Below are positions 8,275 to 60,991 of a DNA stretch of 64,000 nucleotides, piece by piece. A program made the position numbers and the translations under genes. The DNA is from Anisus vortex (Eukaryota; Mollusca; Gastropoda; Planorbidae), in NCBI GenBank assembly GCA_949126835.1, contig OX421500.1, positions 29,305,991-29,369,990 of the forward strand, read 5' to 3'. The notes under the pieces are model-generated. The model was not told the DNA's origin. It did not search any database and saw only the letters and a list, made by a program, of their open reading frames with translations. Position 1 is the stretch's first letter. Every line of letters starts with the position of its first letter.

Positions 8275-8943
8275 TGTCATGTATATTGTTTTTCCAAGAA
8301 TTGGAACACGCAATGTTTATTCCCCTCTCTCTCTCTTTTCTTACTACACACAATATTAGGACGTTTAGTAGGAAAACAAAAGGTTCTAGGTAATGTTGGG
8401 ATTCTGTGTTGATCTCAAATTCTCAGGGTCTTATCTTTTATTTAATAGGGGAAGTTCCTATCGTTTTGTTATGAGTTTTGTAATGTTACCATGATTTTCA
8501 CCCCTACTGGTAGTGGGTCTGTCCCTTGCACCACTCGGATAGTATTTAATGATTTGTTTTGTCTGAAAGACGGAGAGTTTCAAAATATGTTCCTTTGAGA
8601 ACGTTTGTGTTTGCACTATTTTATTCTAACTGTACATAATAGATATATTGTATATATTGAACATACCACCTGAAATAAACTATCAACAACAGTTACACTG
8701 AAGCTTCCTTGTCAAGTTACTATCCTATTGTGTTGTATACATTACTATAAGACTTATCTACTACCATAATGTACAAGAAAGGAAATGTTGGAATACAAAT
8801 ACTGAATTTGTGCCCAGGACTATAAGAAGAGTTCGTGTAATACTGAAACATAAATACTAATAATTAAAGTCTCCCCTAGGACTAACGGGAATTATCAGCA
8901 AGATCTACACAGCTCTGGCCACAAGGGGATTGTGGACGTAACA
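8275..8943 (+). repeat. 5' LTR, 669 bp
   Basis: Starts TGTCATG and ends GTAACA. It contains AATAAA at 8674-8679. It aligns to 14549-15223, which is 6 bp longer because of a replaced segment near 8424-8440. A diverged relative occurs at 42152-42857. Confidence 0.9.
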
Positions 8944-9117
8944 AAATTTGGGGGGCTCGTCCGGGATATTTGAGTTCTACTTTTCCTGACCTAGGATTAA
9001 CAAAATTTAGTGGCCTCGTTCGATATATTTGAGTTCTACTTTTCCTGATCTAGGATTGGAAAAAAATTTGTTTATCTCGTCTGGAAAATTTGAGTTATAT
9101 TTTTCCTGACCTAGAAA
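8939..9117 (+). repeat. three direct repeats of about 60 bp over the primer site region
   Basis: Three successive units share AAAATTT, a CTCGT core, TTTGAGTT, and TTTTTCCTGACCTAG: about 8939-8998, 8999-9057 and 9058-9117. Only the first keeps a good tRNA-Pro match. The second reads CTCGTTCGATAT and the third CTCGTCTGGAAA at the same position. Confidence 0.8.
8949..8967 (+). promoter_or_regulatory. tRNA-Pro-type primer binding site
   Basis: Just inside the 5' LTR the sequence reads TGGGGGGCTCGTCCGGGAT. It equals the classic proline-tRNA primer site with one extra G. In the family this site pairs with the tRNA 3' end to prime minus-strand DNA synthesis. Confidence 0.8.
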
Positions 9118-9364
9118 TATTTTGTGACATTAGTAGTACTGAGAGCGGCATATTTGTGTTTCGTTTTCTAGGACTGTGAAACTATTCTTTTTTAAAAAGA
9201 GGAGAGAACTGGTTTGCGCATTTATTCCTTGGGAAGTGTGAAGATTCCACGAAGTGTTTAATATTATATTGTGCAAATTTCTGGACAAATCGTAAGTTGG
9301 AACTTTATATTTTATTATACAATATATAATACTCTACTATCACAAATATTTCGAACGCTATACT

Positions 9365-10228
9365 ATGGCTTCGAATATATCAAGTGAGGAACTTAAGGCC
9401 ATGTCATTTGCTGAACTAAAAGAATTAGCTGAGTCCTTTGGGATTGAGGCAGGACAGGCAAGACCTAATCGTAATCGTTTGATCAAAGAAATTATGACAT
9501 GTTTGAACGGGCAGAATGCCATGAACACTGTTAATGTAGTTGAAGTGGGACAGAACGATATCAATGAAGGTTATGTAGCTCCCAGTGGGGGCGAGGTAAT
9601 TGCCCACGGAGACGAGGTAAGAAATATGTCATCTAGATCATCAAACAATGATGAAGATGAAGGGTTGAGTGAAAACCTAAAATTCCAATTAGCTATGAAG
9701 AGAATGGAATTAGAAAGTATGGAAAGGAGAGAATTGGAAAGAATTAGGATAGAAACTGAAAGGAAAAATGAAAGAATTAGGATTGAAACTGAAAGGGAAA
9801 ATGAAAGAATTAGGATTGAAATTGAAAGGGAAAATGAAAGAATTAGGATTGAAAGCAGAGAAAGGATAGAGATGGCACGCATGAACAGACCTGACCATCG
9901 TAGGGACAGCAATGGTATGGATATTAGCGCAATGAAGCAACACTTGCCTATATTCAGAGAAGAAGATGTTCAAGATTTCTTTTTGCTTTTTGAGAGGATA
10001 GCTGTAGATTATCAGTTCCCTGATGATAAGATGGCTTTATTGTTAAGGTCAACTCTCAACAAAGGAAAAGCATTGGACGTAGTGTTGAGTTTAACAACCG
10101 AGGAAATAAATGACTATGAAGTGATCAAAGATAGGGTGCTAAAAAGTTATTCCCTGACACCAGAAAAATATAGAAAGCTATTTAGAGACAGAAAGAAGGC
10201 ATATGATCAAACTCATGTAGACTTTTAG
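9365..10228 (+). CDS. gypsy Gag, N-terminal part (broken)
   Basis: Starts at ATG 9365; 287 codons to a stop at 10226-10228. Residues about 12-45 (MSFAELKELAESFGIEAG...) resemble a SAP-like helix-turn-helix. Residues about 110-175 are a charged coiled coil made of an 11-residue repeat (ERIRIETEREN), encoded by 33-bp DNA repeats. The capsid region starts at about residue 195 (PIFREEDVQDFFLLFERIA). Reading continues in another frame at 10228, so the stop results from a one-base frameshift. Gag would form the particle that packages element RNA. Confidence 0.8.
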   Translation: MASNISSEELKAMSFAELKELAESFGIEAGQARPNRNRLIKEIMTCLNGQNAMNTVNVVEVGQNDINEGYVAPSGGEVIAHGDEVRNMSSRSSNNDEDEGLSENLKFQLAMKRMELESMERRELERIRIETERKNERIRIETERENERIRIEIERENERIRIESRERIEMARMNRPDHRRDSNGMDISAMKQHLPIFREEDVQDFFLLFERIAVDYQFPDDKMALLLRSTLNKGKALDVVLSLTTEEINDYEVIKDRVLKSYSLTPEKYRKLFRDRKKAYDQTHVDF

Positions 10229-13200
10229 AAACAAAGGAAAAAATGTTAGAACAGTGGCTAAGGTCACAGAATGTAAGTGAGTTTGATAAACTCTAGAACC
10301 TAATATTGTTTGAGGAATTCAATGATTGTATTCGAGTGGATATTAAAACCCACATCTCAGACCGAGGGGTTGAAGATGTGCATGAAGCTGCTAGATTGGC
10401 AGATAACTATGCCATAATTCAAGCCAGCATAAAGCCATATTATGCTGACAAACCCAAAGTGCACAAACCAGAGCCCAAGGAGGCTAGTAAACCAAAAGAG
10501 ACAAGTGAAAACAATAATAAGAACAGTGGTGTAAATAATAATAGTAACTTAGTTCATTTCAGGAAGCAGACAGATGTAAATAAAGCAAAGGTGGTATGTT
10601 TTAATTGCAAGAAAGAGGGCCACATGAAGAAAGATTGTTGGATCCTTACCAAGAAGCAAGGTGCTATTCTACACTGTGCCAGAGTGCAGAAAGACAGCAA
10701 GCAGACAGAAGAAGTGTGCAACACAGGGTCAAGAAACTCAAAAGAAATGCGGCCGGCGTCACCCATAGTTGTGGAGTCGATGGTTTTTGAGAACAGTCTA
10801 TCTAAGGTAAAAGAGAATAGCTGTACTCAATATATTATGCTTTCAGAAGGCCGTGAGGAACAGATGGTTCCTGAAGTCCCGGAAGAGGACGACCTATCCG
10901 ATTTTCGACCCTTTGTCTACGAGGGGACAGTGTCGACAGAAGTCGATGTACTCAGCAAGAAGAAAATACAGATATTACGTGACACGGGTTCTGCTGTCAG
11001 CGTGATCCTGGAGGGCAGTGTGCCGTTAACAGATGCCACCAGTACCGGTGAGTCTGTTGTGCTGAGAGGTGCTAGTATGGAGGCTGTGGAAGCTCCACTG
11101 CACAGAATAAAACTCGAGTCGGATATTTTTACAGGTAACATCGTAGTGGGAGTGTGGCGCGCACTACCCGTCAAAGACGTTTCCATGATATTAGAAAATG
11201 ACATTATGGGCGGCAGAGTCACTGTCGAGCCCATGGTTAAAGTGTTGGAGACAAAGATGGCGGAGGACAAAAACCTACGTCCTGCCAATGAACGCCCAAC
11301 ATGTGCACTGACAAGAGCAATGCAGAAAAAGAAGTCGGTAAAGACTCCTGCTACGCCGTGTAGTGCAACGAAAGATGTGTTTGTCTGTTCTGAAGAAACA
11401 CATGCGAATGAAACAGTGATAACAGAAACACCTGACATCGATTTAAGTGCTACGTTCTTTGCTGAACTAACAACTGGTGATGCAACAGAGAACGATAACA
11501 TTTTGTCACCAAAGCAGAAATTGGTGAAAGAACAATTGAATGACAAAGTAATAATGCAACTCAGAATGAAAGCTGTTGATGAAAAGACTGCAGATGCAAT
11601 GGCGGAATGTTTTTACATGAAAGATGAAGTGTTGATGAGAAAGTCGAAACCGCTAAACTCAGGTACAAACGAGTGGGACAGTATTCACCAGATTGTAATA
11701 CCTAAGTGCTATCGTCAAGATATACTGCGTATGGCGCATGATCTTCCTTTCGCTGGTCACATAGGAGTCCGAAAAACGCACCACCGTATCCTCCCTTACT
11801 TCTACTGGCCAGGACTGAGAAGAGATGTCGAACAATACTGCAAGACTTGCCACGTATGCCGAATGGTAGGACGTCCTAACCAACGAATTCCTGTCGCTCC
11901 ACTCCAGCCGATACCAGCGTTCGACGAACCATTCAGTCATATACTCATTGATTGCGTGGGCCCGTTGCCGAAAACAAAAGCCGGTTTTCAATACCTGCTC
12001 ACAATCATGTGTTCATCCACTCGCTTCCCGGAAGCCATTCCGTTGCGGAACATAACAACAGTGAAGGTGGTAGACGCTCTGACAAATTTATTCACACGTT
12101 ATGGCCTACCGAAGACAGTACAGTCCGACCAGGGGACTAACTTTACTTCGAACATTTTCAAACAAGTCATGGAACAATTAGGGATAAGCCATAGGCTATC
12201 AAGTGCCTATCATCCTGAGAGCCAGGGAGCTCTGGAAAGGTTTCATCAGACATTAAAATCGATGCTTAAAAAGTACTGTTATGAAAACGAGAAAGACTGG
12301 GATAAGGGTGTGCCTTATGTACTGTTCGCTGCAAGGGAGGCCACTCAGGAATCCCTGGGGTTTAGCCCATTCGAACTTGTGTATGGACACTCAGTCAGAG
12401 GTCCGTTGAAACTTCTACATGAAACTTGGCTAACGGACAGTGAACCGATTGGACTTTTGTCATATGTAGATAAATTTAAAAATAGGCTTTATCATGCTTT
12501 TAACCATGTGAAGATTCATTTTCCACAGATGCAGGAGCGTATGAGACAGAACTATGACCGTAAAGCTACAGCTAGAACTTTTGCACCAGGTGACAAAGTT
12601 CTTGTGTTTCTACCTTTGCAAAATCAGCCTTTAAGTGCAAAGTTTAGTGGACCCTATGAGATAGAGTCAAAGCTTGGCGAGGTCAATTATTTGATAAAGA
12701 CTCCTGACCGGAGACAAAAACAGAGGGAATGCCATATTAATTTACTTAAGCCCTATGTTTCCAGGGAAAAGAGTAAACCACGGGAGGTCCCCATGATTTC
12801 ATTAGCTAGAGTCCCGACGGATTTATCTAGGATAGAATATAAGTTTGCAGAAAGTAAACTTAATAATACAGATGCCCTTAAGAGTTTAGATACAAGGCTA
12901 GAACATCTTCCGGTAGAAGATAAGGAGAAGATTATTGAGCTGGTACATGAAAATAAGTCAATGTTTACAAATGTTCCCAGTAGGACACATGTCATAGAGC
13001 ACGATGTAGTGTTAACCGAGGGTGCCAGGTCTATTAAACAGCATCCATTTGACCCCATCAGACCTGAGCATATTAAATTAAATGTAAAGTATATGTTAGA
13101 AGATGACATAGGAGGAAAATGTGATCGCAAATGGTCTACACCCTGTGTGATGGTACCAAAAGCCGACCACACACTGCAGTTTTATAGAGACTTTGGGAAA

Positions 13201-13304
13201 TTAAGTAATTTGACAAAGACCGACTGGTATCCCATTCCCCGTATCATCGACAAGATAGAGACAAGGTCCTAGCTGATACTCTATCTCGGGTGCTACATGA
13301 TTGA
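10228..13304 (+). pseudogene. gypsy Gag C-terminus, protease, integrase and RT/RNase H remnants
   Basis: After the frameshift a TAG interrupts Gag at 10294-10296; an open frame then runs from 10297 to 13272. In order: a SCAN-like capsid helix region, a CCHC knuckle (CFNCKKEGHMKKDC, about 10596-10637), protease with RDTGSAVS (10975-10998), integrase zinc finger with CKTCHVC, the integrase core with SDQGTNFT and a glutamate 36 residues later (D-35-E spacing kept), and a GPY/F-type SAKFSGPYEI block (about 12628). From about 12990 it reads the start of RT, ending at WYPIPRI. At about 13250 it jumps, out of frame, to the RNase H tail (ADTLSRV) that ends at 13302-13304. The RT core and most of RNase H are deleted. 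Confidence 0.85.
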
Positions 13305-14534
13305 CTGAATAACCCTATACTTCTTTTTCAGATCATCTCACTTATTCATTAAGAATGTGTCATGATAACCTATCATTCGTTTGAATTTTGATTATGGAAT
13401 ACCTATAGAATACTTGTATCATACAGAAGTCAAGTCTTTTGAAAGTATTAATAATTCTTATAATCATGTATAATATTGATGTTCTTATATATTTTAAATT
13501 CATTTGATTATGGAAAAGAAATTCTATTTAAATGTTGATGCATGAGGCAATAAATATATAATATGCACGTATTTACTTGATATGGATGGATAAAAGTAAT
13601 TGTCATCACATGCATATAAGTGGGAAAACTTTGAGCTAGTTGATTTATTATCTTGTTTTATTTTAGTTAATGAATGGAACTAAATAATAATATGTACAAT
13701 TTTTATCTTAGAAAGAGATGTAATATCAATTGGTATAAATTAATAGATAATATTGGAAATCTATTGCTAAATTGTTATATCATGGTAATAGAATGGGAAA
13801 AACTAGTGGATATTCACTATGTTGTATATAGGTTGTTATATATTCCATATATCCGGGAATGGAGGGAAACAAAGGTACCTAAAGGTGTGCACTCATTCAA
13901 CCCTGAACAATCTTTTATATTAAACTTTTAAATTTGCCATAAACGCATAATAGTGGATTACATTTTAATATTTAGATTACTGTAGTAATCGTAACTAGAG
14001 TTTATTTTCTCCGCATATTTGAGAAAAGGGGAAGTATCATCATCTTAGGTATGAACCCTGTTAATGTCAAGTTGACACTGTAATTTAAAGGGGAAGTAAC
14101 CTATAGTTTGATTCGAGTTACGTATTACTTATCTTTTGGTTTGTATATTAGAAGTAACCTGTTGAAAATTGACAGAGTTTGAGCAATGTTATATTTGTTT
14201 AAATAGATTAAGACTTTTTGAAAATTTTTGGTGGAAATCCACACAACTGTACATAGTTAAAATAAGAATGACTAGAATATTTTTGAATTATTTGTACTTG
14301 TTGAGACATTAGTTAATATTAATACTAACGGGGAAATATTTGTCCATCACGTTATAATCACAATTACCATTGGGTAGTGACACTTTTTATAATTTAGTTG
14401 TGCCAGTGAGCCATGTTTGCTTAAATTGTCTTATAATCTTCCATTGATTGTTGGTTATTAAAACGATAGTGTTAAGTACGAAAAATGTACCATGTTGAGT
14501 ATTACTTAGGTAATTATGGTACATTATTTCTTTC
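13305..14534 (+). other. 3' noncoding region of the gypsy element
   Basis: AT-rich, no convincing coding frame. It aligns with 40909-42140 of the deleted relative, so it is part of the family. The open frame at 13674-13931 is not conserved there and I do not call it. Confidence 0.6.
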
Positions 14535-14548
14535 ATTGGGTGGGGGCG
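14535..14548 (+). promoter_or_regulatory. polypurine tract
   Basis: CATTGGGTGGGGGCG immediately precedes the 3' LTR. The relative at 38931-42857 has CATCGGGTGGGGGCG at the same place. This would prime plus-strand synthesis. Confidence 0.7.
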
Positions 14549-15223
14549 TGTCATGTATATTGTTTTTCCAAGAATTGGAACACGCAATGTTTATTCCCCT
14601 CTCTCTCTCTTTTCTTACTACACACAATATTAGGACGTTTAGAAGGAAAACAAAAGGTTCTAGGTAATGTTGGGATTCTGTGTTGATCTCAAATTCTCAG
14701 GGTCTGGGAACGACTCATTATTTAATAGGGGAAGTTCCTATCGTTTTGTTATGAGTTTTGTAATGTTACCATGATTTTTACCCCTACTGGTAGTGGGTCT
14801 GTCCCTTGCACCACTTGGATAGTATTTAATGATTTGTTTTGTCTGAAAGACGGAGAATTTCAAAATATGTTCCTTTGAGAACGTTTGTGTTTGCACTATT
14901 TTATTCTAACTGTACATAATAGATATATTGTATATATTGAACATACCACCTGAAATAAACTATCAACAACAGTTACACTGAAGCTTCCTTGTCAAGTTAC
15001 TATCCTATTGTGTTGTATACATTACTATAAGACTTATCTACTACCATAATGTACAAGAAAGGAAATGTTTGAATACAAATACTAAATTTGTGCCCAGGAC
15101 TATAAGAAGAGTTCGTGTAATACTGAAACATAAATACTAATAATTAAAGTCTCCCCTAGGACTAACGAGAATTATCAGCAAGATCTACACAGCTCTGGCC
15201 ACAAGGGGATTGTGGACGTAACA
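14549..15223 (+). repeat. 3' LTR, 675 bp
   Basis: Aligns to 8275-8943, starting TGTCATG and ending GTGGACGTAACA. It is followed by the AG minisatellite, which shows that the element inserted into that repeat. Confidence 0.9.
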
Positions 15224-16676: not shown

Positions 16677-19600
16677 AAAAGTGATGGGTAGTAAAAATGT
16701 AAGTAGTGTATAGGTGGATTGATGGGTAGTAAAGAATGTAAGTAGTGTATAGGTGGATTGATGGGTAGTAAAGAATGTAAGTAGTGTATAGGTGGATTGA
16801 TGGGTAGTAAAGAATGTAAGTGAATAATATGTGGATTGATGGGTAGTAAAGAATGTAAGTGAATAATATGTGGATTGATGGGTAGTAAAGAATGTAAGTG
16901 AATAATATGTGGATTGATGGGTAGTAAAGAAAGTAAGTGGTGTATATGTGGATTGATTGGTAGTAAAGAATGTAAGTAAATAATATGTGGATTGATGGGT
17001 AGTAAAGAATGTAAGTGAATAATATGTGGATTGATGGGTAGTAAAGAATGTAAGTGAATAATATGTGGAATGATGGGTAGTAAAGAATGTAAGTGAATAA
17101 TATGTGGATTGATGGGTAGTAAAGAAAGTAAGTGGTGTATAGGTGGATTGATGGGTAGTAAAGAATGTAAGTGAATAATATGTGGATTGATGGGTAGTAA
17201 AGAAAGTAAGTGGTGTATATGTGGATTGATTGGTAGTAAAGAATGTAAGTAAATAATATGTTTATTGATGGGTAGTAAAGAATGTAAGTGAATAATATGT
17301 GGATTGATGGGTAGTAAAGAATGTAAGTGAATAATATGTGGATTGATGGGTAGTAAAGAATGTAAGTGAATAATATGTGGATTGATGGGAAGTAAAGAAT
17401 GTAAGTGAATAATATGTGGATTGATGGGTAGTAAAGAAAGTAAGTGGTGTATTGGTGGATTGATGGGTAGTAAAGAATGTAAGTGAATAATATGTGGATT
17501 GATGGGTAGTAAAGAATGTAAGTGAATAATATGTGGATTGATGGGTAGTAAAGAAAGTATACGGTGTATATGTGGATTGATTGGTAGTAAAGAATGTAAG
17601 TGAATAATATGTGGATTGATGGGTAGTAAAGAATGTAAGTGAATAATATGTGGATTGATGGGTAGTAAAGAATGTAAGTGAATAATATGTGGATTGATGG
17701 GTAGTAAAGAATGTCAGTGAATAATATGTGGATTGATGGGTAGTAAAGAATGTAAGTGAATAATATGTGGATTGATGGGTAGTAAAGAAAGTAAGTGGTG
17801 TATTGGTGGATTGATGGGTAGTAAAGAATGTAAGTGAATAATATGTGCATTGATGGTTAGTAAAGAATGTAAGTGAATATTATGTGGATTGATGGGTAGT
17901 AAAGAAAGTAAGTGGTGTATAGGTGGATTGATGGGTAGTAAAGAATGTAAGTGAATAATATGTGGATTGATGGGTAGTAAAGAATGTAAGTAGTGTATAG
18001 GTTGATTGATGGGTAGTAATGAATGTAAGTAGTGTATAGGTTGATTGATGGGTAGTAAAGAAAGTAAGTGGTGTATAAGTGGATTGATGGGTAGTAATGA
18101 ATGTAAGTAGTGTATATGTTGATTGATGGGTAGTAAAGAAAGTAAGTGGTGTATAAGTGGATTGATGGGTAGTAAAGAAGATAAGTAGTGGTTAGGTGGA
18201 TTGATGGGTAGTAAGGAATGTAAGTAGTGTATAGGTGGATTGATGGGTAGTAAAGAATGTAAGTGAATAATATGTGGATTGATGGGTAGTAAAGAATGTA
18301 AGTTAATAATATGTGGATTGATGGGTAGTAAAGAAAGTAAGTGGTGTATATGTGGATTGATTGGTAGTAAAGAATGTAAGTAAATAATATGTGGATTGAT
18401 GGGTAGTAAAGAATGTAAGTGAATAATATGTGGATTGATGGGTAGTAAAGAATGTAAGTGAATAATATGTGGATTGATGGGTAGTAAAGAAAGTAAGTAG
18501 TGTATAGGTGGATTGATGGGTAGTAAAGAATGTAAGTGAATAATATGTGGATTGATGGGTAGTAAAGAAAGTAAGTGGTGTATATGTGGATTGATTGGTA
18601 GTAAAGAATGTAAGTAAATAATATGTTTATTGATGGGTAGTAAAGAATGTAAGTGAATAATATGTGGATTGATGGGTATTAAAGAATGTAAGTGAATAAT
18701 ATGTGGATTGATGGGTAGTAAAGAATGTAAGTGAATAATATGTGGATTGATGGGAAGTAAAGAATGTAAGTGAATAATATGTGGATTGATGGGTAGTAAA
18801 GAAAGTAAGTGGTGTATTGGTGGATTGATGGGTAGTAAAGAATGTAAGTGAATAATATGTGGATTGATGGGTAGTAAAGAATGTAAGTGAATAATATGTG
18901 GATTGATGGGTAGTAAAAAAAGTATATGGTGTATATGTGGATTGATTGGTAGTAAAGAATGTAAGTGAATAATATGTGGATTGATAAGTAGTAAAGAATG
19001 TAAGTGAATAATATGTGGATTGATGGGTAGTAAAGAATGTAAGTGAATAATATGTGGATTGATGGGTAGTAAAGAATGTAAGTGAATAATATGTGGATTG
19101 ATGGGTAGTAAAGAAAGTAAGTGGTGTATTGGTGGATTGATGGGTAGTGAAGAATGTAAGTGAATAATATGTGCATTGATGGGTAGTAAAGAATGTAAGT
19201 GAATATTATGTGGATTGATGGGTAGTAAAGAAAGTAAGTGGTGTATAGGTGGATTGATGGGTAGTAAAGAATGTAAGTGAATAATATGTGGATTGATGGG
19301 TAGTAAAGAATGTAAGTAGTGTATAGGTTGATTGATGGGTAGTAATGAATGTAAGTAGTGTATAGGTTGATTGATGGGTAGTAAAGAAAGTAAGTGGTGT
19401 ATAAGTGGATTGATGGGTAGTAATGAATGTAAGTAGTGTATAGGTTGATTGATGGGTAGTAAAGAAAGTAAGTGGTGTATAAGTGGATTGATGGGTAGTA
19501 AAGAAGATAAGTAGCTGTTAGGTGGATTGATGGGTAGTAAGGAATGTAAGTAGTGTATAGGTGGATTGATGGGTAGTAAAGAATGTAAGTGAATAATATG

Positions 19601-20122
19601 TGGATTGATGGGTAGTAAAAAAAGTAAGTAGTGTATAGGTGGATTGATGTGTAGTAAAGAATGTAAGTGAATAATATGTAGATTGATGGGTAGTAAAGAA
19701 AGTAAGTGGTGTATAGGTGGATTGATGGGTAGTAAAGAATGTAAGTAGTGTATATGTGGATTGATGGGTAGTAAAGAAAGTAAGTGGTGTATATGTGGAT
19801 TGATGGGTAGTAAAGAAAGTAAGTGGTGTATAGTAGGATTGATGGGTAGTAAAGAATGTAAGTAGTGTATAGGTTGATTGATGGGTAGTGAAGAATATAA
19901 GTAGTGTATAGGTTGATTGATGGGTAGTAAAGAATGTAAGTAGTGTATAGGTTGATTGATGGGTAGTAAAGAATGTAAGTGAATAATATGTAGATTGATG
20001 GGTAGTAAAGAAAGTAAGTGGTGTATAGGTGGATTGATGGGTAGTAAAGAAAGTAAGTGGTGTATAGGTTGATTGATGGGTAGTAAAGAAAGTAAGTAGT
20101 GTATAGGTTGATTGATGGGTAG
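16677..20122. repeat. 39-bp satellite array, about 88 copies
   Basis: Unit: GGATTGATGGGTAGTAAAGA, then either ATGTAAGTGAATAATATGT, AAGTAAGTGGTGTATAGGT or ATGTAAGTAGTGTATAGGT. The period is 39 bp. Rare variants recur at fixed spacing: TTTATTGATG at 17261 and 18626, and GGGAAGTAAAG at 17387 and 18752, both 1365 bp (35 units) apart. This shows higher-order duplication. A 13-codon period keeps long frames open (391 codons and others); these are not genes. The array is split by the gypsy element at 20123. Confidence 0.95.
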
Positions 20123-20483
20123 TGTGAGGATTTAAAATATAGATAGTTGTTTTATGGGACAATTTTTATAATCTCTAACCCGGTGTTAATGTATGGAATA
20201 AACGAGTGACGTTTTACGATAGAAACAATGACGTAGGAGTTAGATTGAACGTAGCGTAGATTTGGTAGTAAAGACAGACGACCTAAGAATTTGGTGGTGG
20301 AAAGACGTGTTTTAGACTAGGCTATAGAAACTGTGGAGTATTTGAATTCATCTTGTACATAAATTGCATTAAATATTGAGTTCTCAGTTTTACTACAAGC
20401 CGGCAGTTTGTTCATTGATTATTAATATATAATGTGATCTCCCTGAGAGTTTTATACATAGTAATTACAAAATAACGGTCACA
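20123..20483 (+). repeat. 5' LTR, 361 bp
   Basis: Starts TGTGAGGATTTAAAATA and ends AACGGTCACA. AATAAA occurs at 20197-20202. It differs from the 3' LTR near 20311-20316 (CGTGTTTTAGAC versus CGTTTTTCAGAC). Confidence 0.95.
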
Positions 20484-20488
20484 TTATT

Positions 20489-20499
20489 TGGCGCCCAAC
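20489..20499 (+). promoter_or_regulatory. probable primer binding site
   Basis: TGGCGCCCAAC lies five bases inside the 5' LTR. The TGGCGCCC start is common in gypsy and lentiviral-type primer sites for lysine tRNA, but only about eight bases can be assigned, so the tRNA is not certain. It differs from the tRNA-Pro site of the 8275 element. Confidence 0.55.
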
Positions 20500-21630
20500 T
20501 AAAATTCGGAAGCTCAAGGTGAATTCGGAAGCCCAATGTGGAATATTGAAAATCAACGGAGAATGTTGAAGGAGAATCAAGGTGAATATTATTGAAAATC
20601 AATTTGAAAGAAAGCCTACAATATATTGTGAAGCACAGCTTAAAGAATACCGCAAATGAACGTTTCTTACGACTAAAAGAAGACTAAAATTCAATGTCAA
20701 GAAATATCGACGAGAAAGAAAATTTGACGGTTTAACAGTATAGCCTAGCACGTCTTGGAATTAAGCGCTACCAGTACATAACGGTGTACATGAAGATAGA
20801 AACGGAAGTTTATGTATGTTACCAAGCAAGTCGGTTAAAAAGGCCACTGGAAGTTGAAAGGCGTCTCGGATACATTTTAAAAGTATCGAAAGTGGTAACA
20901 ATTATTGAAACAATAGTAAAGCTGTGGTTAATAGGACAAGCTAAGTTTGTCAAGTGAAGAGATTAAAAAAGAATCTCCGTAGAACTAGTAAATGGTTCGA
21001 GAAAAGAAGAATACTTCAGAATAGTCACAGAACTAGAAGTCAGTTCAGTACAGTAGCAGAAGTCAAGTGAAATTGGAAGTAAAAAGAAACTTCAACAAAG
21101 TGAAAGGATTGTAATTCTTATGAATTAACGAACACACGAAGACTTTGGGCTGAAATAACCTGTGTGGTGGAGGATCATTTCGAGTTTGGAACCTCGGATT
21201 CGGAGACGGAAGGAAAAGGAACGCGTTTTTTAAGATAAGTAAACTGGTGTATACGTTATATTGTAGTATAGTATATGCCTAGATTTTTCTTGTGAAATCA
21301 CTGGCATGTATTAGTTTCTTTTAGGAATTTTGTGTATACACTTATTGAAAAGTCCCTGTAAGTCAGGTTAGTTGAAAAAGACTTTTCATAAGTGTATATT
21401 ACATAATATATGTTAGATTGTATAGTCTTGTATGCACAGTGTTATCATATTGTTTATATATTTGTCATAGTAAATTTTTTGTGAATCTCGAGTCTCATCT
21501 ACTATCTGTGGTGTTCTTATTTTTATATATATATTGATTATTATATTGATATTTATTTTATGAATATTGTAATATTGATTACATTTTAATTTATATTAGT
21601 TTGTTGTAGGTATATATTTATTAATTGAAA
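20500..21630 (+). other. 5' leader of the RT-less element
   Basis: About 1.1 kb without a long reading frame. It is AG-rich in its first half, then AT-rich before the ATG at 21631. It may hold packaging signals, but none can be recognised from sequence alone. Confidence 0.5.
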
Positions 21631-24600
21631 ATGGAGGGGTCCTCAGTGGACATATTAGCAAATTATATAAGTTGTGGTAAGGAGTTGGGATATGCTGGTA
21701 AGGAATTGGATGAGTGGGCGGAGAGAAAATATAAAGAGCATTTAGAAAGAGTAGAAAGGGCTAAAGATAAGGCTAAAGAAAGAGAAGATAAAGATAAAGA
21801 AAGAGAAGATAAGGTTAGAGCTGATGAGATGGAACTAAAGAGATTAGAGAGGGAGGAAAAGGAGAAAGATAGAATTTTTCAGCTAAAAAAGTTAGAATTA
21901 GAAGCTAAAAATAACACTGCAAATGTAAACATTGGAGTCACTAGACCTATTGTTGACCAGGAAATGGCTATTAGAAATAACATGTGCAGATTTACTTTCC
22001 AATTATTTAACGAAAAGGATGGTTCTATTGGTACATTTCTAAAAAAATTTGAAATGGAAATGGAGAGACAAAATTTTTCTTCATGTTATTGGTCTGGACT
22101 ACTGGGAAAATCCTTTACAGGAGATATTCCATCAAAAATTTGTATGGAACAATCAGATTATGCATCTGTCAAGGAACAATTGTTAAGACATTTTGGAAGT
22201 ACAGATGAGGCTTATAGAAAGAAATTTTTTGAAATGACTTTATCAAAGGAAGAAGATCCAAAAAGTTATTTTGACTCATTGACAAGTGCTATGGACAAAT
22301 GGTTAAAATGTGCTAAAATAGAAAAATCATTTGAGGAACTGAAGAATTTTATTATTAGAGATAAGGCAATATATTCACTCGATAAGACTCTCAAAGCATT
22401 CATTCAGGAGAGATCTCCCAAGACTATAGAGGAAATAGTTGACCTGATTAGGAACTATAAATTAGCTCATCCCATGGCACCTACTTCTAAAGGAGAGGAT
22501 TACCAGGATATAATATGCTTTGCTAAAGGCAATGAGAATTTTCAAAGAGGAAGACAATTATCAAGGAGCAAGATGAAGTGTGGTAATTGTGGAAGAAATA
22601 ACCATGTTACTAAGGATTGTAGAGATAAGAGAGATAACACATTGACATGTTTTATATGTAAAAAGAAAGGACATATAGCAAGAAATTGCTTCAGAAGGTC
22701 AAGTTCTGCTGGAAACAATAATAATAATAATAATAGATCTCAGGGATATACACAACAAAGAGATCACAACTCCAGATTTAATCAGAACAGGAATCATTGT
22801 GGAGCTGTGTTATCAAGAAGCAAAGGAATAAAGTTTTTTCCAGGATATGTGGGATTAATACCAGTTTTCGCAGTTCGTGACACGGGAGCCTCTGTCATTG
22901 CAATAAACAGCAAATATGTTCAGTCAAATCAATATACTGGTGAGGTAGCAGATTGTACATCATTTGATGGAAGAGTGATTAAATTAAGGTTGGCCTACAT
23001 TGATATTAGGACACCATATATTACAGGTAGAGTACTGGCTCATGTTATAAATGATGCACCAATAGATTTAATTATTGGAAATGTTGAATCAGTTAAAGAA
23101 TGTACTAGAGAGGAAATAGAAGCATGGGAATTTAATAATAAGCAAGCACAATGTAATGTGATTAATGAATGTAAAGCAAGCAATACTGAAGAAAGTCAGA
23201 CAATGGTGAATAATGAAAAAGACACATCAGTTGATAGTGAATCATTACTGAATGAAAACTTTAATTTGGAAAAATTCAAAAAGGAACAAAGAGAGGATAC
23301 TACATTGGATAGATTATTCAAATCTACAGAGAAAGGAACTACTAATAAGAATAGTGTATGCAAGGTGAAAAATGATACACAACTATTAGTCAGAGAGATA
23401 CTCATAAATGGCAGACAAGTGGAACAAATAGTTGTACCATATAAATATAGAACAGAAATAATGACTAATGCTCATTCTATACCATTGGCTGGTCATATGG
23501 GAGTTGGCAAAACCAAAAACAGAATAATACAACATTACTTTTGGCCTAAAATTTCCAAAGATGTGAAAAGATTTGTTAAACAATGCAAAGTGTGTCAGAT
23601 GAAAGGATCTGGAAGTAATTTTACCAAAGCACCAATACAAACAGGAGTGACTGCAACTAGACCATTTCAGAAGGTAGCCATAGATATCATTGGTTTGATG
23701 CCTATTATGTCTAACAGAGGACATAGATATATTCTTACATTGATTGATATATGTTCAAGGTATGCAGAGGCAGTACCATTAAAGAAAATTGAATCTACAG
23801 ATATAGTGCAAGCATTATATTTAATATTTACTAGAATTGGATTTCCTGAAGAGATAATATCAGATAGAGGAACTCAATTTACATCAAAATTGACTAAGGA
23901 ATTTATGGAAACATTTGGAATAAAGCAGAAATTTACAACACCCTATCATCCACAATGTAATGGAATGTGTGAGAGATTTAACAAAACTCTGAAGGAAATG
24001 TTGTCAAAAGTTAGTAATGAGGATCTAAAGAATTGGGATTTGGCAATTCCATCAATTTTATTTGCATATAGAGAAACTACTCATGATAGTACAGGTTTTT
24101 CACCCTTTGAACTAATATATAGAGGTAATTCAAGAGGTCAGCTTGAGAGAATTGATGCAAAAATAAAATGTCATAGACATAAGAATGAGACAGAAAAAGA
24201 ATTTTGGAAGGATTATTTTTCTAATGATAAATCTGTGGTAGATTGGAAATTGGACATAATTAATCTTGAGAGAAAAGAAGAGGAAAGAGAAAAAAATTGT
24301 CAATTAAATAAAATGAATCTAGGGATGAAAATCATGGAGTTAAATAATGAAGATAGCTTATGTGATAATGTTGTTGATGTAATTAAGAAGGATGATATAG
24401 AAAATGAAAAATCAAAAATCTTAAGTGGAGAACTTAAAGTCATATTGGAAGAACCTAATAGCTTAAATGAAGATTCTATTTGTAGGAGTATATTGGATGA
24501 ATCAAGGATTGTTATTGAAGAGCTAAAGGAGATAGTTGAAGAAGAACAGGTCATATTTGAAACATTAGACTTAAAGGTCATAAGAGAAGTTAGGATACAA

Positions 24601-25317
24601 ATAAAAGAGTCAGAGATCATTAGTAAAGAGTCAGTGATTACAATGAAAGAGTCATTGGAAGTGATAGATAAGAATATAGTTCATGCAATGATTGAGAAAG
24701 AGAAACACTTAGAAATGAGTGATGTGCATAATGAATTTAATGATAAGTGTTTATTGGATAAGGTTGATACAAGAGTATTAAATGGTAAGTCAGTACAAGA
24801 CAGTGTACTAAAGGAGTGTCAGAAGGACCATATGGGAATTGATGATTGTCAGATGGGAGAAATGGCAATTATAGATAATCAGGATATGTTATGTGAAGAT
24901 TGTGAAGAGGAGAAGATAAAGGGGTCTGATATGTTGATTGAAGATTGTCATAAGGAGAAAGATGATTTTAAGTTGTTGTGTAGAGAGTGTTTTGAGAAAA
25001 ATGAAGTGAAGTTTGTGGTGATGGAAACAAATGAAAAAGAGAAAGTGATGGAAATAGCTAAAGGTGAAGAAAACATATACTGTGAATTAGTTTTATTACA
25101 AAGAGAAAAAGATGTAAGTGGTGTGATGGAAAGTAATTGTGGGAGTTTGATTAAGATTATGTCAGAGAAGGGTTGTAGAAGAATGAAGGTGAGTCAGGAA
25201 CTGGTAAGGTTTACATCTTGTAGTATCAGTAAAAATACTAAAGGAGTTGGTGAGGAGTATTTGTTTAAATCTGATAGACCTAATGTTTTTGTAAGAAAAA
25301 AAAATGGTAATTTTTGA
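21631..25317 (+). CDS. Gag-protease-integrase polyprotein with acidic C-terminal tail, no RT
   Basis: Intact frame of 1228 codons from ATG 21631. Residues about 25-95 are a K/E coiled coil; about 120-290 a capsid-like region; CCHC knuckles at about 316-329 (CGNCGRNNHVTKDC) and 338-351 (CFICKKKGHIARNC); an N-rich linker; protease with RDTGASV at about 416. The integrase has a zinc finger (H...H, CKVCQMK at about 652) and a core with SDRGTQFT and E with D-35-E spacing, ending at about 830 (GFSPFELIY). Residues about 845-1228 are an acidic, helix-prone tail with cysteine pairs (LCEDCEEEK, LLCRECFEK) and no RT or RNase H motif. A typical gypsy polyprotein would carry RT-RNase H of roughly 450 residues. 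The tail's function is unknown. Confidence 0.9.
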   Translation: MEGSSVDILANYISCGKELGYAGKELDEWAERKYKEHLERVERAKDKAKEREDKDKEREDKVRADEMELKRLEREEKEKDRIFQLKKLELEAKNNTANVNIGVTRPIVDQEMAIRNNMCRFTFQLFNEKDGSIGTFLKKFEMEMERQNFSSCYWSGLLGKSFTGDIPSKICMEQSDYASVKEQLLRHFGSTDEAYRKKFFEMTLSKEEDPKSYFDSLTSAMDKWLKCAKIEKSFEELKNFIIRDKAIYSLDKTLKAFIQERSPKTIEEIVDLIRNYKLAHPMAPTSKGEDYQDIICFAKGNENFQRGRQLSRSKMKCGNCGRNNHVTKDCRDKRDNTLTCFICKKKGHIARNCFRRSSSAGNNNNNNNRSQGYTQQRDHNSRFNQNRNHCGAVLSRSKGIKFFPGYVGLIPVFAVRDTGASVIAINSKYVQSNQYTGEVADCTSFDGRVIKLRLAYIDIRTPYITGRVLAHVINDAPIDLIIGNVESVKECTREEIEAWEFNNKQAQCNVINECKASNTEESQTMVNNEKDTSVDSESLLNENFNLEKFKKEQREDTTLDRLFKSTEKGTTNKNSVCKVKNDTQLLVREILINGRQVEQIVVPYKYRTEIMTNAHSIPLAGHMGVGKTKNRIIQHYFWPKISKDVKRFVKQCKVCQMKGSGSNFTKAPIQTGVTATRPFQKVAIDIIGLMPIMSNRGHRYILTLIDICSRYAEAVPLKKIESTDIVQALYLIFTRIGFPEEIISDRGTQFTSKLTKEFMETFGIKQKFTTPYHPQCNGMCERFNKTLKEMLSKVSNEDLKNWDLAIPSILFAYRETTHDSTGFSPFELIYRGNSRGQLERIDAKIKCHRHKNETEKEFWKDYFSNDKSVVDWKLDIINLERKEEEREKNCQLNKMNLGMKIMELNNEDSLCDNVVDVIKKDDIENEKSKILSGELKVILEEPNSLNEDSICRSILDESRIVIEELKEIVEEEQVIFETLDLKVIREVRIQIKESEIISKESVITMKESLEVIDKNIVHAMIEKEKHLEMSDVHNEFNDKCLLDKVDTRVLNGKSVQDSVLKECQKDHMGIDDCQMGEMAIIDNQDMLCEDCEEEKIKGSDMLIEDCHKEKDDFKLLCRECFEKNEVKFVVMETNEKEKVMEIAKGEENIYCELVLLQREKDVSGVMESNCGSLIKIMSEKGCRRMKVSQELVRFTSCSISKNTKGVGEEYLFKSDRPNVFVRKKNGNF

Positions 25318-26624
25318 ATTATTATTTCAAAGAATTGACTTGGTGTTGACTATGCATAAAAATGGTTTATGGTGAATGGATTTGTGGTATAATTATAACT
25401 TGGGAAAATATATATATTCTGGTTTTGTAGTGGTGAGGAACAAGAATTGAGAATATCTATGATACAATACTATAGATTTGGTATAATAGTATGTAAATAG
25501 TAAATGGAAAACACTCATGGTTATTAAAGTGGTTGAAAAAAAAAGGTGACTAATTTGATGTTTAGATGTGGTGTTTAATGTGTGCTGTTTGATACGTAAT
25601 CACCAGTTTGGAACGCGGTTAAAAAATTATTTTTCATGTAAATATAAAGTATAGATACGGTGTTAATGAAATATTGATTTTTTCCAAAGGTTCTGGACGA
25701 GAAATGGTTCTACAACTGAAGCACGGTGATTCAAGCACAACGTACCATTTGTAAGTGAGAGATGTTCTATCACGTCCTCACATTATCGTGAACGGTTTTT
25801 ATGGACACCATATCAAACGCAAACATGAGGACATCATATGAAGAGTACATTTATGGTGCTAACATGGAATCGAGGTCATGTCATCGCTATATCAAGGTAT
25901 ATTGACATAATCAACATAGAATCAAGGTCATGTCGTTGCATGATTAAGGTACATTTACATTGTCAACGCAGAATGAAGGTCATGTCATCAACATATGGAG
26001 GAATCAACAGATCAACACGTTATTGATAACATTATACATTTTTTTTGGTTTATGACCAATTCAACACTATATTGCTTACAGACAGACAGCTCGTGGTTAA
26101 GTATTCAATGGTAAATTCTTGAGATGTATCTGTGAACAATGCATTGTAATTATTGTTGTGACATTATTGGAACTATTTTATCAAGGTGTTGAAACTCTAC
26201 AGGATGGATAATCTACAAAGGACCTATGAAATATTCAATAAATGTATTGTTGGACGTTCAGAAGAGGAAGGTTGCAATGATATTACATGGACCAGTATGA
26301 ACTGTTGTGTTCGGATTTGATATTTATAATGTTGGTTTGTGTATTTCAGTGATACAGGACAGGATATACTTTGAAACATTATGGACATAGATATTAGTGA
26401 AAGTTATTGGTTAATATATTAATATATTGATGAAATTGTTGGTTTTGTTAAAGGTTATTTGTGTTGCATAAATTATTTTAATATGCATGATAATTATGAT
26501 TATTTATATAATTATATGATTAAAGACAGGGGATTAAGGATATATATATATTTAATTTTATCAAAGTATTTGACGGAGATAGGGATTTTATTTTAAGAAA
26601 TTTGTATGACAAATTTAAAGGGTC
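25318..26624 (+). other. 3' noncoding region of the RT-less element
   Basis: About 1.3 kb, no RT-like frame. A loosely repeated block, GAATCGAGGTCATGTCATCG and AATCAAGGTCATGTCGTTGC and AATGAAGGTCATGTCATCAA, recurs at about 25868, 25920 and 25972 (about 52-bp spacing). Confidence 0.55.
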
Positions 26625-26634
26625 GATGGGGGAA
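26625..26634 (+). promoter_or_regulatory. polypurine tract
   Basis: GATGGGGGAA directly before the 3' LTR, preceded by AAAGGGTC. This is the expected position and composition for plus-strand priming. Confidence 0.65.
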
Positions 26635-26995
26635 TGTGAGGATTTAAAATATAGATAGTTGTTTTATGGGACAATTTTTATAATCTCTAACCCGGTGTTA
26701 ATGTATGGAATAAACGAGTGACGTTTTACGATAGAAACAATGACGTAGGAGTTAGATTGAACGTAGCGTAGATTTGGTAGTAAAGACAGACGACCTAAGA
26801 ATTTGGTGGTGGAAAGACGTTTTTCAGACTAGGCTATAGAAACTGTGGAGTATTTGAATTCATCTTGTACATAAATTGCATTAAATATTGAGTTCTCAGT
26901 TTTACTACAAGCCGGCAGTTTGTTCATTGATTATTAATATATAATGTGATCTCCCTGAGAGTTTTATACATAGTAATTACAAAATAACGGTCACA
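26635..26995 (+). repeat. 3' LTR, 361 bp
   Basis: Same start and end as 20123-20483, two substitutions seen. It is followed by GGTAG and then satellite. Confidence 0.95.
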
Positions 26996-28770
26996 GGTAG
27001 TAAAGAAAGTAAGTGGTGTATAGGTGGATTGATGGGTAGTAAAGAATGTAAGTAGTGTATAGGTTGATTGATGGGTAGTAAAGAATGTAAGTAGTGTATA
27101 GGTTGATTGATGGTAGTAATAAAAGTAAGTAGTGTATAGGTTGATTGATGGGTAGTAAAGAATGTAAGTGAATAATATGTGCTTTGATGGGTAGTAAAGA
27201 AAGTAAGTGGTGTATTGGTGGATTGATGGGTAGTAAAGAATGTAAGTGAATAATATGTGCATTGATGGGTAGTAAAGAATGTAAGTGAATATTATGTGGA
27301 TTGATGGGTAGTAAAGAAAGTAAGTGGTGTATAGGTGGATTGATGGGTAGTAAAGAATGTAAGTGAATAATATGTGGATTGATGGGTAGTAAAGAATGTA
27401 AGTAGTGTATAGGTTGATTGATGGGTAGTAATGAATGTAAGTAGTGTATAGGTTGATTGATGGGTAGTAAAGAAAGTAAGTGGTGTATAAGTGGATTGAT
27501 GGGTAGTAATGAATGTAAGTAGTGTATAGGTTGATTGATGGGTAGTAAAGAAAGTAAGTGGTGTATAAGTGGATTGATGGGTAGTAAAGAAGATAAGTAG
27601 TGGTTAGGTGGATTGATGGGTAGTAAGGAATGTAAGTAGTGTATAGGTAGATTGATGGGTAGTAAAGAATGTAAGTAAATAATATGTGGATTGATGGGTA
27701 GTAAAAAAAGTAAGTAGTGTATAGGTGGATTGATGTATTGTAAAGAATGTAAGTGAATAATATGTAGATTGATGGGTAGTAAAGAAAGTAAGTGGTGTAT
27801 AGGTGGATTGATGGGTAGTAAAGAATGTAAGTAGTGTATATGTGGATTGATGGGTAGTAAAGAAAGTAAGTGGTGTATAGTAGGATTGATGGGTAGTAAA
27901 GAATGTAAGTAGTGTATAGGTTGATTGATGGGTAGTGAAGAATATAAGTAGTGTATAGGTTGATTGATGGGTAGTAAAGAATGTAAGTAGTGTATAGGTT
28001 GATTGATGGGTAGTAAAGAATGTAAGTGAATAATATGTAGATTGATGGGTAGTAAAGAAAGTAAGTGGTGTATAGTTGGATTGATGGGTAGTAAAGAAAG
28101 TAAGTGGTGTATAGGTTGATTGATGGGTAGTAAAGAAAGTAAGTAGTGTATAGGTTGATTGATGGGTAGTAAAGAAAGTAAGTGGTGTATAGGTGGATTG
28201 ATGGGTAGTAAAGAATGTAAGTAGTGTATAGGTTGATTGATGGGTAGTAAAGAATGTAAGTAGTGTATAGGTTGATTGATGGTAGTAATAAAAGTAAGTA
28301 GTGTATAGGTTGATTGATGGGTAGTAAAGAATGTAAGTAGTGTATAGGTCGATTGATGGGTAGTAAAGAATGTAAGTAGTGTATAGGTTGATTGATGGGT
28401 AGTAAAGAATGTAAGTAGTTTATAGGTTGATTGATGGGTAGTAAAGAAAGTAAGTAGTGTATATGTGGATTGATGGGTAGTAAAGAATGTAAGTAGTGTA
28501 TAGGTTGATTGAATGGTAGTAAAGAATGTAAGTAGTGTATAGGTTGATTGATGGGTAGTAAAGAATGTAAGTAGTGTATAGGTTGATTGATGGGTAGTAA
28601 AGAATGTAAGTAGTGTATAGGTTGATTGATGGGTAGTAAAGAATGTAAGTAGTAAGTAGTGGATATGGGGATTGATGAATAATAAAGGAGGTAAGTTGGG
28701 TATAGGTGGATTGATGGGCTGTAAATAATGTAAGTGAATAATATGTGGATTGATGGGTAGTAAAGAAGAT
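26996..28770. repeat. 39-bp satellite array, continued, about 45 copies
   Basis: Continuation of the array after the gypsy insertion. The variant GTGCATTGATGG at 27257 also occurs at 17845 and 19171. After removing the insertion the spacings are about 1326 and 1208 bp, consistent with a repeating block of 31-34 units. The 637-codon and 617-codon minus-strand frames here are repeat artefacts. The array ends where a LINE is inserted at 28771. Confidence 0.95.
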
Positions 28771-29023
28771 GGCAGACAAGGGAACGCTCCCCAGATATGG
28801 AGGGTACCAGGGAAATAAAATACCCGGGGCGTACCAAAAATCAACAGCCACAGTGCACATGACCATGCCTGTGTCCTGTGATAAACTGTAGGAACTGCAT
28901 TCCTTGCATGGACAGACTGGACCTGTCAAAATTCGCGGAAGACTCCCATTTCTAGGTCCAACGGGAATAAAGGCGCGGACAGCAACACACCATGGAGTGT
29001 CAGATAAGGCACAGTGAGGCCAC

Positions 29024-29483
29024 AACAGACCACTGTAGGCCATCCACTGCATCCCAAGCTATCTCTAACAACAGACCACTGTAGGCCAGCCACTGCATCC
29101 CAAGCTACCTCTAACAACAGACCACTGTAGGCCATCCACTGCATCCCAAGCTACCTCTAACAACAGACCACTGTAGGCCATCCACTGCATCCCAAGCTAT
29201 CTCTAACAACAGACCACTGTAGGCTATCCACTGCATCCCAAGCTACCTCTAACAACAGACCACTGTAGGCCATCCACTGCATCCCAAGCTACCTCTAACA
29301 ACAGACCACTGTAGGCCATCCACTGCATCCCAAGCTACCTCTAACAACAGACCACTGTAGGCCATCCACTGCATCCCAAGCTACCTCTAACAACAGACCA
29401 CTGTAGGCCATCCACTGCATCCCAAGCTACCTCTAACAACAGACCACTGTAGGCCATCCACTGCATCCCAAGCTATCTCTAAC
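29024..29483. repeat. 46-bp minisatellite, exactly 10 copies
   Basis: The unit begins AACAGACCACTGTAGGCCAT and ends with a TCTAAC block, starting at 29024 and every 46 bp until 29483. Copies differ by single bases (GCCAGCC, GGCTATC, GCTATCT or GCTACCT). It lies in the 5' region of the LINE. Overlapping open frames are artefacts. Confidence 0.95.
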
Positions 29484-33239: not shown

Positions 33240-34335
33240 GCTACATAATACATAAATGATTTAAAAACGAAGATTTTAAACAGACTACATGATTTAGAAC
33301 GAAGATTTAAAACAGAATTTATGATTTAAAAAGAAGATTTAAAACAGACTACATGATTTAAAACGAAGATTTAAAACAGAATACATGATTTAAAAAAACG
33401 ATTTAAAAAGACGATTTAAAAAGACTACATGGTTTAAAACGAAGTTTTAAAACAGAATACACGATTTAAAAATAGATGTAAAACAGACTACATGATTTAA
33501 AAAGAAAATTTAAAACAGAATACAGGATTTAAAAAGAAGATCAAAAACAGAATATATGATTTAAAGAGAAGATTTCAAACAGGCTACATGATTTAAAAAG
33601 AAGATTTTAAACATAATACATGATTTAAAAAAAAGATTTTAAAAAATAATATATTATTTTAAAAGAAGAGTAAAGACAGTAAATGATTTAAAACGAAGAT
33701 TTAAAACAGACCACGTGATTTAAAAGGAAGATTTTAAACAGAATACATGATTTAAAAAGACGATTTAAAAAGACTACATGATTTATAACGAAGATTTAAA
33801 ACAGAATACATGACTTAAAAACAAGATTTAAAACAGACGACATGATTTAAAAAGAAGATCTAAAACAGAATATATGATTTAAAAAGAAGATTTAAAAAAG
33901 AATATATGATTTAAAGAGAAGATTTCAAATAGACTACATGATTTATAAAGAATATTTAAAAAAGAATACATGATTTAAAAAGAAGATTAAAAACAGAATA
34001 TATGATTTAAAGAGAAGATTTCAAACAGACTACATGATTTAAAAAGAAGATTTAAAACAGAATACATGATTTAAAAAGAAGATTAAAAAATATATGATTT
34101 AAAAAGAAGAGTTAACACACTAAATGATTTAAAACAGACCACATGATTTAAACGGAAGATTTAAAACAGAATACATGATTTAAAAAGAAGATTTAAAACG
34201 GACTACATGATTTGAAACGAATAATTAAAACAGAATACATGACTTAAAAAGAAGATTTAAAACAGACTACACGATTTAAAAGACGATTTAAAACAGAATA
34301 TATGATTTAAAAAGATGATTTAAAACAGACTAGAA
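33240..34335. repeat. 32-bp A-rich minisatellite, about 33 copies
   Basis: Unit TACATGATTTAAAAAGAAGA then TTTAAAACAGAA, with frequent changes, between the left end and the transposase of the Mutator-like element. No open frame of note. Confidence 0.85.
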
Positions 34336-38930: not shown

Positions 38931-39434
38931 TGTCATGTATATAAGTTTCCAAGTATTAAAACACACAATGTTTATCCCCCCCTCTCTTTTTCTCTCTAAA
39001 CACAATTTTGTGGGCGGGGCTTAGTCTTTCCAATTGCTGACTTTTAGTAAGAAGGCGAAAGATTCTTGGTAATTTCGGTATTCTGTGTTGACCTCAAATT
39101 CTCAGAGTGTCTGGGAACGGCTTATTATTTCTGAATAGGGAGTTCTTATCGTTTTTGTTATGAGTTTTTAGATGATACCATTATTTTCCCCCCTACTAGT
39201 AATAGGTCTGTCCCTTGCACCACTTGAATAGGTTTTTGATGATTTGTTTGTCTGAAAGGCAGTGAGTTTTGAGATAATTTCTTTTTTAAGACGCTTGTGT
39301 TTGCACTATTTTATTATAACTGTACAAAATCCTTCTATTGTATATATAATTGAACATATCACTTGAATTTAATTATCAACAACATTTACAGTGAAGATTC
39401 CTCGTCAAGTTACTATTCTACTGTGTTGTTTACA
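38931..39434 (+). repeat. 5' LTR, truncated
   Basis: About 504 bp aligning with the start of 42152-42857. It breaks off at GTGTTGTTTACAA, where it joins internal sequence equivalent to about 11371 of the 8275 element. Confidence 0.85.
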
Positions 39435-40908: not shown

Positions 40909-42151
40909 CTGAATAACCCAATGCTTCTTTTTCAGATCATCTCACTGGTTCATTAAAAATGTGTCATGATAACCTATCATTCGTTTGAAATTTGATTATG
41001 GAATACCTATAGAATATTTATATCAGACAGAAGTCAAGTCTTTTGAAAGTATTAATCATTTTCTTAATCATGCACTAGATAAAAGTATTATATTTCCTTA
41101 TTGATGTTCTGAGATATTTTAAATTCATTTGATTCATTTTATTATGGAAAAGAAATTCCATTTAAATTCTGATGCATTATGCAATAAATATATATGTATG
41201 TTTTTACTTGATATGGATGGATAAAAGTAATTGTCATTACAAGCAATTAAGTGGGGAAACTTTGACCTAGTTGATTTATTATCTTGTTTCATTTTAGTTA
41301 ATGAATAAAACTAAATAATAATATTATGTCCTATTTTTTTTATCTCAGAAAGAGATGTAAAAGCAATTGGTATAAATTATTAGATACTATTGGAAATCTA
41401 TTGCTAAATTGTTATATCTTGGTAATAGAATTGGAAAAACTAGTGGATACTATCCCTATGTTGTATATTCCATATATCCGGGAATAAAGGGAAATAAAGG
41501 TATTTAAACTGTTAAATTTGCCAAAAACGTATAATGGTAGATTATATTTTAATATTTAGATTGCTGTAGTAATTGTAACTTGAGCGTATTTCTCCTCATA
41601 TTTGAGAAAATGGGAAGTAGCCTAATAATCATCTTAAGTATGAACCCTCTAATAGATATTAGTTAATATCAAGTTGACACTGTAATTTAAAGGGGAAGTA
41701 AGCTATAGTTTGGTTAAAGTGATGAATTACTTATCTTTTAGTTTGTATATTGGAGGTAAACTGTTGAAAATTGCCAGACTGTGAGCAATGTTATATTTGT
41801 TTAAATAGATTAAAACTTTTTGAAAATTTTTGGTGGAAATCCACACAACTGTACATAGTTAAAATAGGAATGACTAGAAAATGTTGGAATTATTTGTACT
41901 TGTTGAGACATTAGTTAATTTTAATGTTAACAGGGAGATATTTGTCCATCACGTTATAATCACAATTACTATTAAGTAATGACACTTTTTATAATGTAAT
42001 TATGCCAATGAGCCATTTTTTGCTTAAATTGTCTTATGATCTTCCATTTATTGATGGTTGTTAACACGATAGTGTAAGGTACAAAAAATGTACCATGTTT
42101 GGTAGTACTATGGTAATTATGGTACATTATTTCTTTCATCGGGTGGGGGCG

Positions 42152-60880: not shown

Positions 60881-60991
60881 ACTAGTAAATTAATAATAAA
60901 CGTTAAAATACAAGAAAAAAAATATTTTTCCCCACATTGAAACAGGTACCGGTACGCCGTAGCGGTGCGTACCGTGACAAAAAAAGCACTC

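Follow-up and report, generated by a model that had tools for sequence, protein, structure and literature searches.

Several long terminal repeat (LTR) retrotransposons that lack their own reverse transcriptase (RT) have been described in plants, including TR-GAG elements, which have an open Gag frame, use a partner and are reported to have been observed in transposition (PMC8704663), the Gag-Pro element RLG_Sabrina (RLG_Sabrina_SA), cited as an RT-less precedent (PMC9744471), pol-less Athila families, reported to have an intact Gag (in some cases with Env) under purifying selection (PMC2410132), and RLG_Quinta of wheat, described as coding for Gag and DUF1 with RLG_Cereba as its partner (PMC11302176). 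Among elements that do carry RT, the Gmr1 clade is described as having integrase upstream of RT (PMC6238403), and a Gmr1-like Gag is reported as the source of the SCAN domain (PMC3424704). Here we analyse element B, an LTR element at positions 20123-26995 of a 64-kb window (that is, the whole stretch of DNA presented), in which its neighbours are named A, C and D. We propose, with a probability of roughly 0.6, that element B is a semi-autonomous LTR retrotransposon that derives from a Gypsy element with a SCAN-type Gag and integrase encoded before RT, that its RT part was recombined out in exchange for an unrelated coding tail, and that it was mobilised in trans.

Element B carries one long frame with zero stops at 21625-25314 (residues are counted here from 21625 and are thus 2 higher than ATG-based numbers). 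Every component that the original prediction had listed for this frame (1228 codons, two zinc knuckles, a DTGAS protease and a D-35-E integrase) could be located, and Pfam (E<=0.1) recovered SCAN, CCHC, H2C2 and rve domains:

21631-25317, + strand: single frame of 1228 codons plus TGA stop, with the ATG at 21631
22207-22467, + strand: SCAN-type Gag capsid domain, residues 195-281 (Pfam)
22579-22689, + strand: two CCHC zinc knuckles, residues 319 and 342 (Pfam and motif)
22879-23085, + strand: aspartic protease, from DTGAS (residue 419) to LIIGNV (motifs)
23434-23604, + strand: integrase H2C2 zinc-binding domain, residues 604-660 (Pfam)
23656-23952, + strand: integrase rve core, residues 678-776 by Pfam, with the catalytic E783 just beyond

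The SCAN match (PF02023) reaches 30.3 bits against a cut-off of 27, and the integrase residues D747 and E783 show the spacing of 35 residues. The frame had been regarded as intact, and it is indeed open, but the integrase is not complete: its C-terminal (SH3/GPY-F-type) domain is gone, which had escaped attention. The reported absence of RT and RNase H between the LTRs held up: Pfam at E<=0.1 detected neither in element B, and the RT regions of P0001 and P0002 (two relatives introduced below), used as tblastn queries at E<=10, gave one chance-level match inside the element (E 6.4, minus strand). When all 120 relatives studied were used as tblastn queries against 24115-26634, 29 matches at E<=1 appeared, the best of them (E 0.004) to a C-terminal stretch of integrase, and a shuffle control placed this best match no higher than chance; in the same kind of search, 107 of the 120 relatives matched element D at its RNase H end. 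By these searches element B lacks RT-RNase H, one of the properties by which non-autonomous LTR elements mobilised in trans are recognized.

The relatives (7990 candidates scored, 749 passed, best 120 of the 749 studied) indicate what once followed the integrase. Closest among the 120 listed is P0001, a protein of 1448 aa with the order Gag–protease–integrase–RT–RNase H from an ena contig of 6214 bp, which is 93% identical to element B over residues 8-840, where the match ends under standard settings. Per 60-residue block, identity is 85-90% in the first two blocks (the charged N-terminus), 95-100% from residue 121 to 780 and 88% in block 781-840, inside which the breakpoint falls. The next relatives in this set are P0002 (49%) and proteins of Biomphalaria glabrata (36-42%); the latter, as the nearest named relatives, hint at a mollusc host and at no more than that. 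No DNA relative of element B was confirmed in the viral contig or genome contig collections. Past rve, P0001 and P0002 both show Pfam matches to SH3_Tf2-1 and Integrase_p58_C (of which only SH3_Tf2-1 in P0001 passes the cut-off), followed by RVT_1 and RNase H; element B shows none of these. In BLAST searches that used the RVT_1 part of P0001 and its integrase, both matched 107 of the 120 relatives, and integrase came first in 107 of 107; among the 13 relatives lacking an RT match, no protein ended in an unrelated C-terminal tail (RT-bearing relatives left at most 17 residues unmatched). The SCAN-type Gag together with this integrase-first order is the main clue to element B, and one that the original prediction had missed. 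Because the order makes RT-RNase H the last module, Gag, protease and the integrase core survive the loss of RT; of the suggested selection or very recent origin, the young insertion stands, whereas the integrase was kept by gene order and was not singled out.

Identity to P0001 stops after TGFSPF (residue 828, position 24108), and what follows can be divided into two parts:

24109-24144, + strand: break zone, in which residues 829-840 are still weakly integrase-like (alignment to P0001)
24145-25314, + strand: coding tail of 390 codons, replacing the integrase C-terminal domain, RT and RNase H

As the matches of P0003-P0005 extend to residue 852 of element B, the exact break may sit a few codons past residue 828. 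The 3′ part had indeed been thought replaced, and a coding tail does stand in place of RT, but it starts near residue 829 and not at 845. Family copies with RT-RNase H after integrase had been named as what would reduce element B to a deletion derivative; this applies to the one close relative found, P0001, yet no simple deletion accounts for a coding tail of ~390 codons in place of RT. In frame 0 the tail contains 0 stops in 390 codons, against 43 and 71 in the other forward frames; order-1 Markov resamples of the tail had a mean of 40.5 stops, and 0 of 2000 were stop-free. Its 3-base periodicity (base-by-codon-position information relative to resamples) has a z of 17.6 (10.3 and 7.0 for the two halves), compared with 27.9 for Gag–protease–integrase, -1.1 for the 3′ region and 0.2 for the leader. 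Given that it is stop-free and strongly periodic relative to the resamples, we take the tail as coding along its whole length. C-ending codons are rarer in the tail (7/93 versus 37/202; Fisher p 0.014), and its differences in codon usage would fit a separate origin without proving one.

Searches for a homologue of the tail, which depend on shared 5-residue words such that a fast-changing relative could escape, gave none at E<=1 among proteins 0.55-1.75 times the length of the whole frame (4596 candidates) and none at E<=10 with the tail alone as query (5433 candidates). The best Pfam match (E 0.29) was under the cut-off, and a single-sequence AlphaFold model was mostly helical with a pLDDT of 35.8 and a pTM of 0.17, offering no usable fold (no fold search was made). 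A faint collinear resemblance to P0008 in its integrase C-terminal region (tblastn E 0.004, 120 queries) was rejected by a shuffle control, in which 53 of 100 shuffled tails equalled or bettered the real tail (best blastp E 0.72), and an alignment to P0001 that ran weakly into the tail with composition correction off was given no weight. Our guess is that the tail serves a particle, tethering or substitute integrase C-terminal function.

Element B is a young insertion with the hallmarks of reverse transcription and integration, which the remaining features illustrate:

20118-20122: target-site duplication GGTAG, left (flank-joining test)
20123-20483, + strand: 5′ LTR, 361 bp
20484-21630, + strand: leader, without coding periodicity (z 0.2)
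20489-20499, + strand: primer binding site (PBS)-like stretch TGGCGCCCAAC, 5 bases past the 5′ LTR (by eye)
25318-26634, + strand: 3′ region, without coding periodicity (z -1.1), with a purine-rich polypurine tract (PPT)-like run at its end (by eye)
26635-26995, + strand: 3′ LTR, 361 bp
26996-27000: target-site duplication GGTAG, right (flank-joining test)

The LTR pair differs by 2 substitutions over 361 bp, in agreement with the near-identity claimed earlier, once the bounds are corrected to a 5′ LTR end at 20483 and a 3′ LTR start at 26635. The host site is a 39-bp tandem array (16682-20123 and 26996-28767) that itself carries about one GGTAG per unit (51 in 2122 bp, or 54.4 units). When the flanks are joined with a single GGTAG, the array period matches at 94.9% across the junction, in register, whereas 12 other joining offsets from -6 to +6 reach at most 51.3%. 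Because the joining restores the array in register, the claimed duplication is confirmed as more than an array motif met twice. The array is almost C-free on the + strand, and its minus strand contains very long open frames (up to 805 codons), which seem to be an incidental effect of the repeat. The PBS-like stretch appears to resemble tRNA-Lys primer sites; no tRNA genes were found in the window. Direct LTRs, a target-site duplication and PBS-like and PPT-like sites, which together define LTR retrotransposons, are all present. An assembly artefact that joined the integrase part to foreign sequence is very improbable in the face of matched LTRs, an exact empty site and a fusion that stays in frame over ~390 codons. 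Ginger elements are described as RT-less Gypsy-type integrases with TGTNR ends, Ginger2 being without the GPY/F motif (PMC2836005), and the integrase core retained in element B could by analogy move it as DNA without RT. We consider such movement the most improbable of the explanations weighed here: near-identical direct LTRs, PBS-like and PPT-like sites and a Gag–protease frame indicate reverse transcription, and the cut-and-paste movement, terminal inverted repeats and single transposase by which Ginger is described (PMC2836005) are not what element B shows, which has direct LTRs and a Gag–protease–integrase frame.

The neighbouring elements show how RT is lost in this window. All three elements with an RT region inside it (A, B and C) lack a whole RT, each differently, and only element B has a coding replacement. 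Element A (8275-15223) is a fairly young LTR element of integrase-first order with AG-rich tandem arrays on its flanks. Its LTRs (~8275-8943 and 14549-15223) are 97.6% alike, and the sequence after the 5′ LTR resembles what we take to be a tRNA-Pro primer site. Its Gag lies in two frames, a Gag piece at 9296-10228 and a frame at 10297-13272 that runs from Gag through protease and integrase into early RT, past which comes, in another frame, sequence that matches the last RNase H codons. Element C (~38931-42858) belongs to the same family (93.9% over 1337 bp) and contains frame breaks; its integrase C-terminal domain is joined directly to what matches only the last 44 aligned residues of RNase H, and a further deletion extends from inside the 5′ LTR to the integrase region. 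Elements A and C thus lost RT-RNase H, from an integrase-first order, by differing deletions. Element D, on the minus strand at 63425-64000, consists of part of an RNase H that is 79% like P0002 and runs off the edge of the window. As helpers for element B, both element A (no complete RT, and LTR ends that differ) and element D (truncated at the window edge) were set aside. Further tandem arrays lie at 29022-29483 (46-bp unit, 98% matches) and 33252-34332 (32-bp based unit).

These deletions bear on two other origins of element B. A single recombination at the RNA level may have yielded a defective chimera that inserted once with help in trans and never spread, and the one known copy, a tail without match in the protein database searched and the RT-RNase H losses of A and C by deletions of their own (so that RT loss is frequent here) all agree with such an event. 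We nevertheless regard it as rather unlikely, given that an open tail of ~390 codons with coding periodicity would be unusual for a randomly joined piece, although a piece of an existing gene would show both. Less likely again, in our estimation, is a deletion of RT-RNase H that left integrase fused to an extra gene, one which in the autonomous ancestor would have stood between pol and the 3′ LTR. The deletions in A and C do terminate at the RNase H end, and additional genes of plant LTR elements are reported to lie mostly between pol and the 3′ LTR (PMC7264820); however, no such gene is known for these relatives, and 59875-63424, downstream of the RNase H of element D, has no minus-strand open reading frame of at least 80 codons, with the proviso that D is P0002-like.

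Our preferred reading, replacement of the RT part and mobilisation in trans, can be envisioned as follows. In a SCAN-Gag Gypsy ancestor with integrase before RT (Gmr1-type order), a recombination just past the integrase catalytic core would have removed the integrase C-terminal domain, RT and RNase H, and the same recombination would have fused an unrelated coding sequence of ~390 codons in frame. The chimera presumably arose before element B inserted, its RNA may have been packaged in particles of its own and partner Gag, and RT-RNase H, probably with a complete integrase, may have been provided in trans within the same particle by a P0001-like partner. As element B does not encode RT, another source must have supplied the enzyme (unless the exchange postdates insertion), and a P0001-like partner is the natural donor, given that co-assembly of its Gag, protease and integrase with those of element B is to be expected. 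The parasitism on a partner's RT in the original prediction is thereby supported as a probable dependence, deduced from the absence of RT.

Several points weigh against this scenario. Element B is known from one DNA copy, the 120 listed relatives hold no second example of a Gag–protease–integrase frame with an unrelated tail, and the replacement could have taken place after insertion. RT loss looks common here, which lessens the special meaning of the loss in element B. The partnership with P0001 is a candidate one, drawn from protein similarity, and the retained integrase core may not work without its C-terminal domain. Finally, a codon-usage likelihood trained on Gag–protease–integrase does not single out frame 0 of the tail (0.067 versus 0.066 in another frame), and synonymous usage in the tail fits base composition slightly better than Gag–protease–integrase usage (-0.8145 versus -0.8338 per codon).

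More tentatively, and as a possibility to which we give less than even odds, element B may represent a propagating family (Gag–protease–integrase–X) that exchanged RT-RNase H and the integrase C-terminal domain for a new, selected domain X on the integrase core, takes RT in trans and feeds particle, protease and integrase into a shared system; X may steer particle assembly or integration. The layout of core and tail is explained by the integrase-first order, in which the polymerase, as a terminal module, can be exchanged for some other coding sequence without closing the frame of Gag, protease and the integrase core. Should element B prove to form a family, it would parallel, outside plants, the elements that combine Gag with an unknown domain, and it would provide a natural way of testing which pol functions can come in trans.

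In the literature searched, no title or abstract opening described an animal Gag–protease–integrase element with RT replaced, a weak negative given that subscription papers were mostly outside the search. RLG_Quinta resembles element B in that it is non-autonomous, derives from an autonomous family, has an open Gag frame and a domain of unknown function, and lacks RT, but it is a plant element described with Gag and DUF1 only, without integrase, and as an element population (PMC11302176). Maize Bs1 is another LTR element for comparison, one with transduced host sequence (mentioned in PMC7264820). RLG_Sabrina_SA and TR-GAG share the lack of RT and the open Gag or Gag-Pro frame, but as described they have no integrase frame, and an unknown tail is not mentioned. 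The pol-less Athila families are similar in their missing pol and intact Gag and differ in being of plants and, in the account cited, in not keeping protease and integrase; Bs1 differs in that its donors are known. Gmr1-type Gypsy elements share the SCAN-type Gag and the integrase-first order met in the relatives of element B, but possess RT, and the RT tree of the clade is inapplicable to an RT-less copy. P0001 is nearly identical in Gag, protease and integrase zinc finger and core, but continues after the core with the integrase C-terminal domain, RT and RNase H. With this nearest relative carrying RT-RNase H after integrase, the undescribed element type that had been suggested gives way to a probable derivative of a known kind, the SCAN-Gag Gypsy element with integrase before RT, in which the layout with an unknown tail would be the new part.

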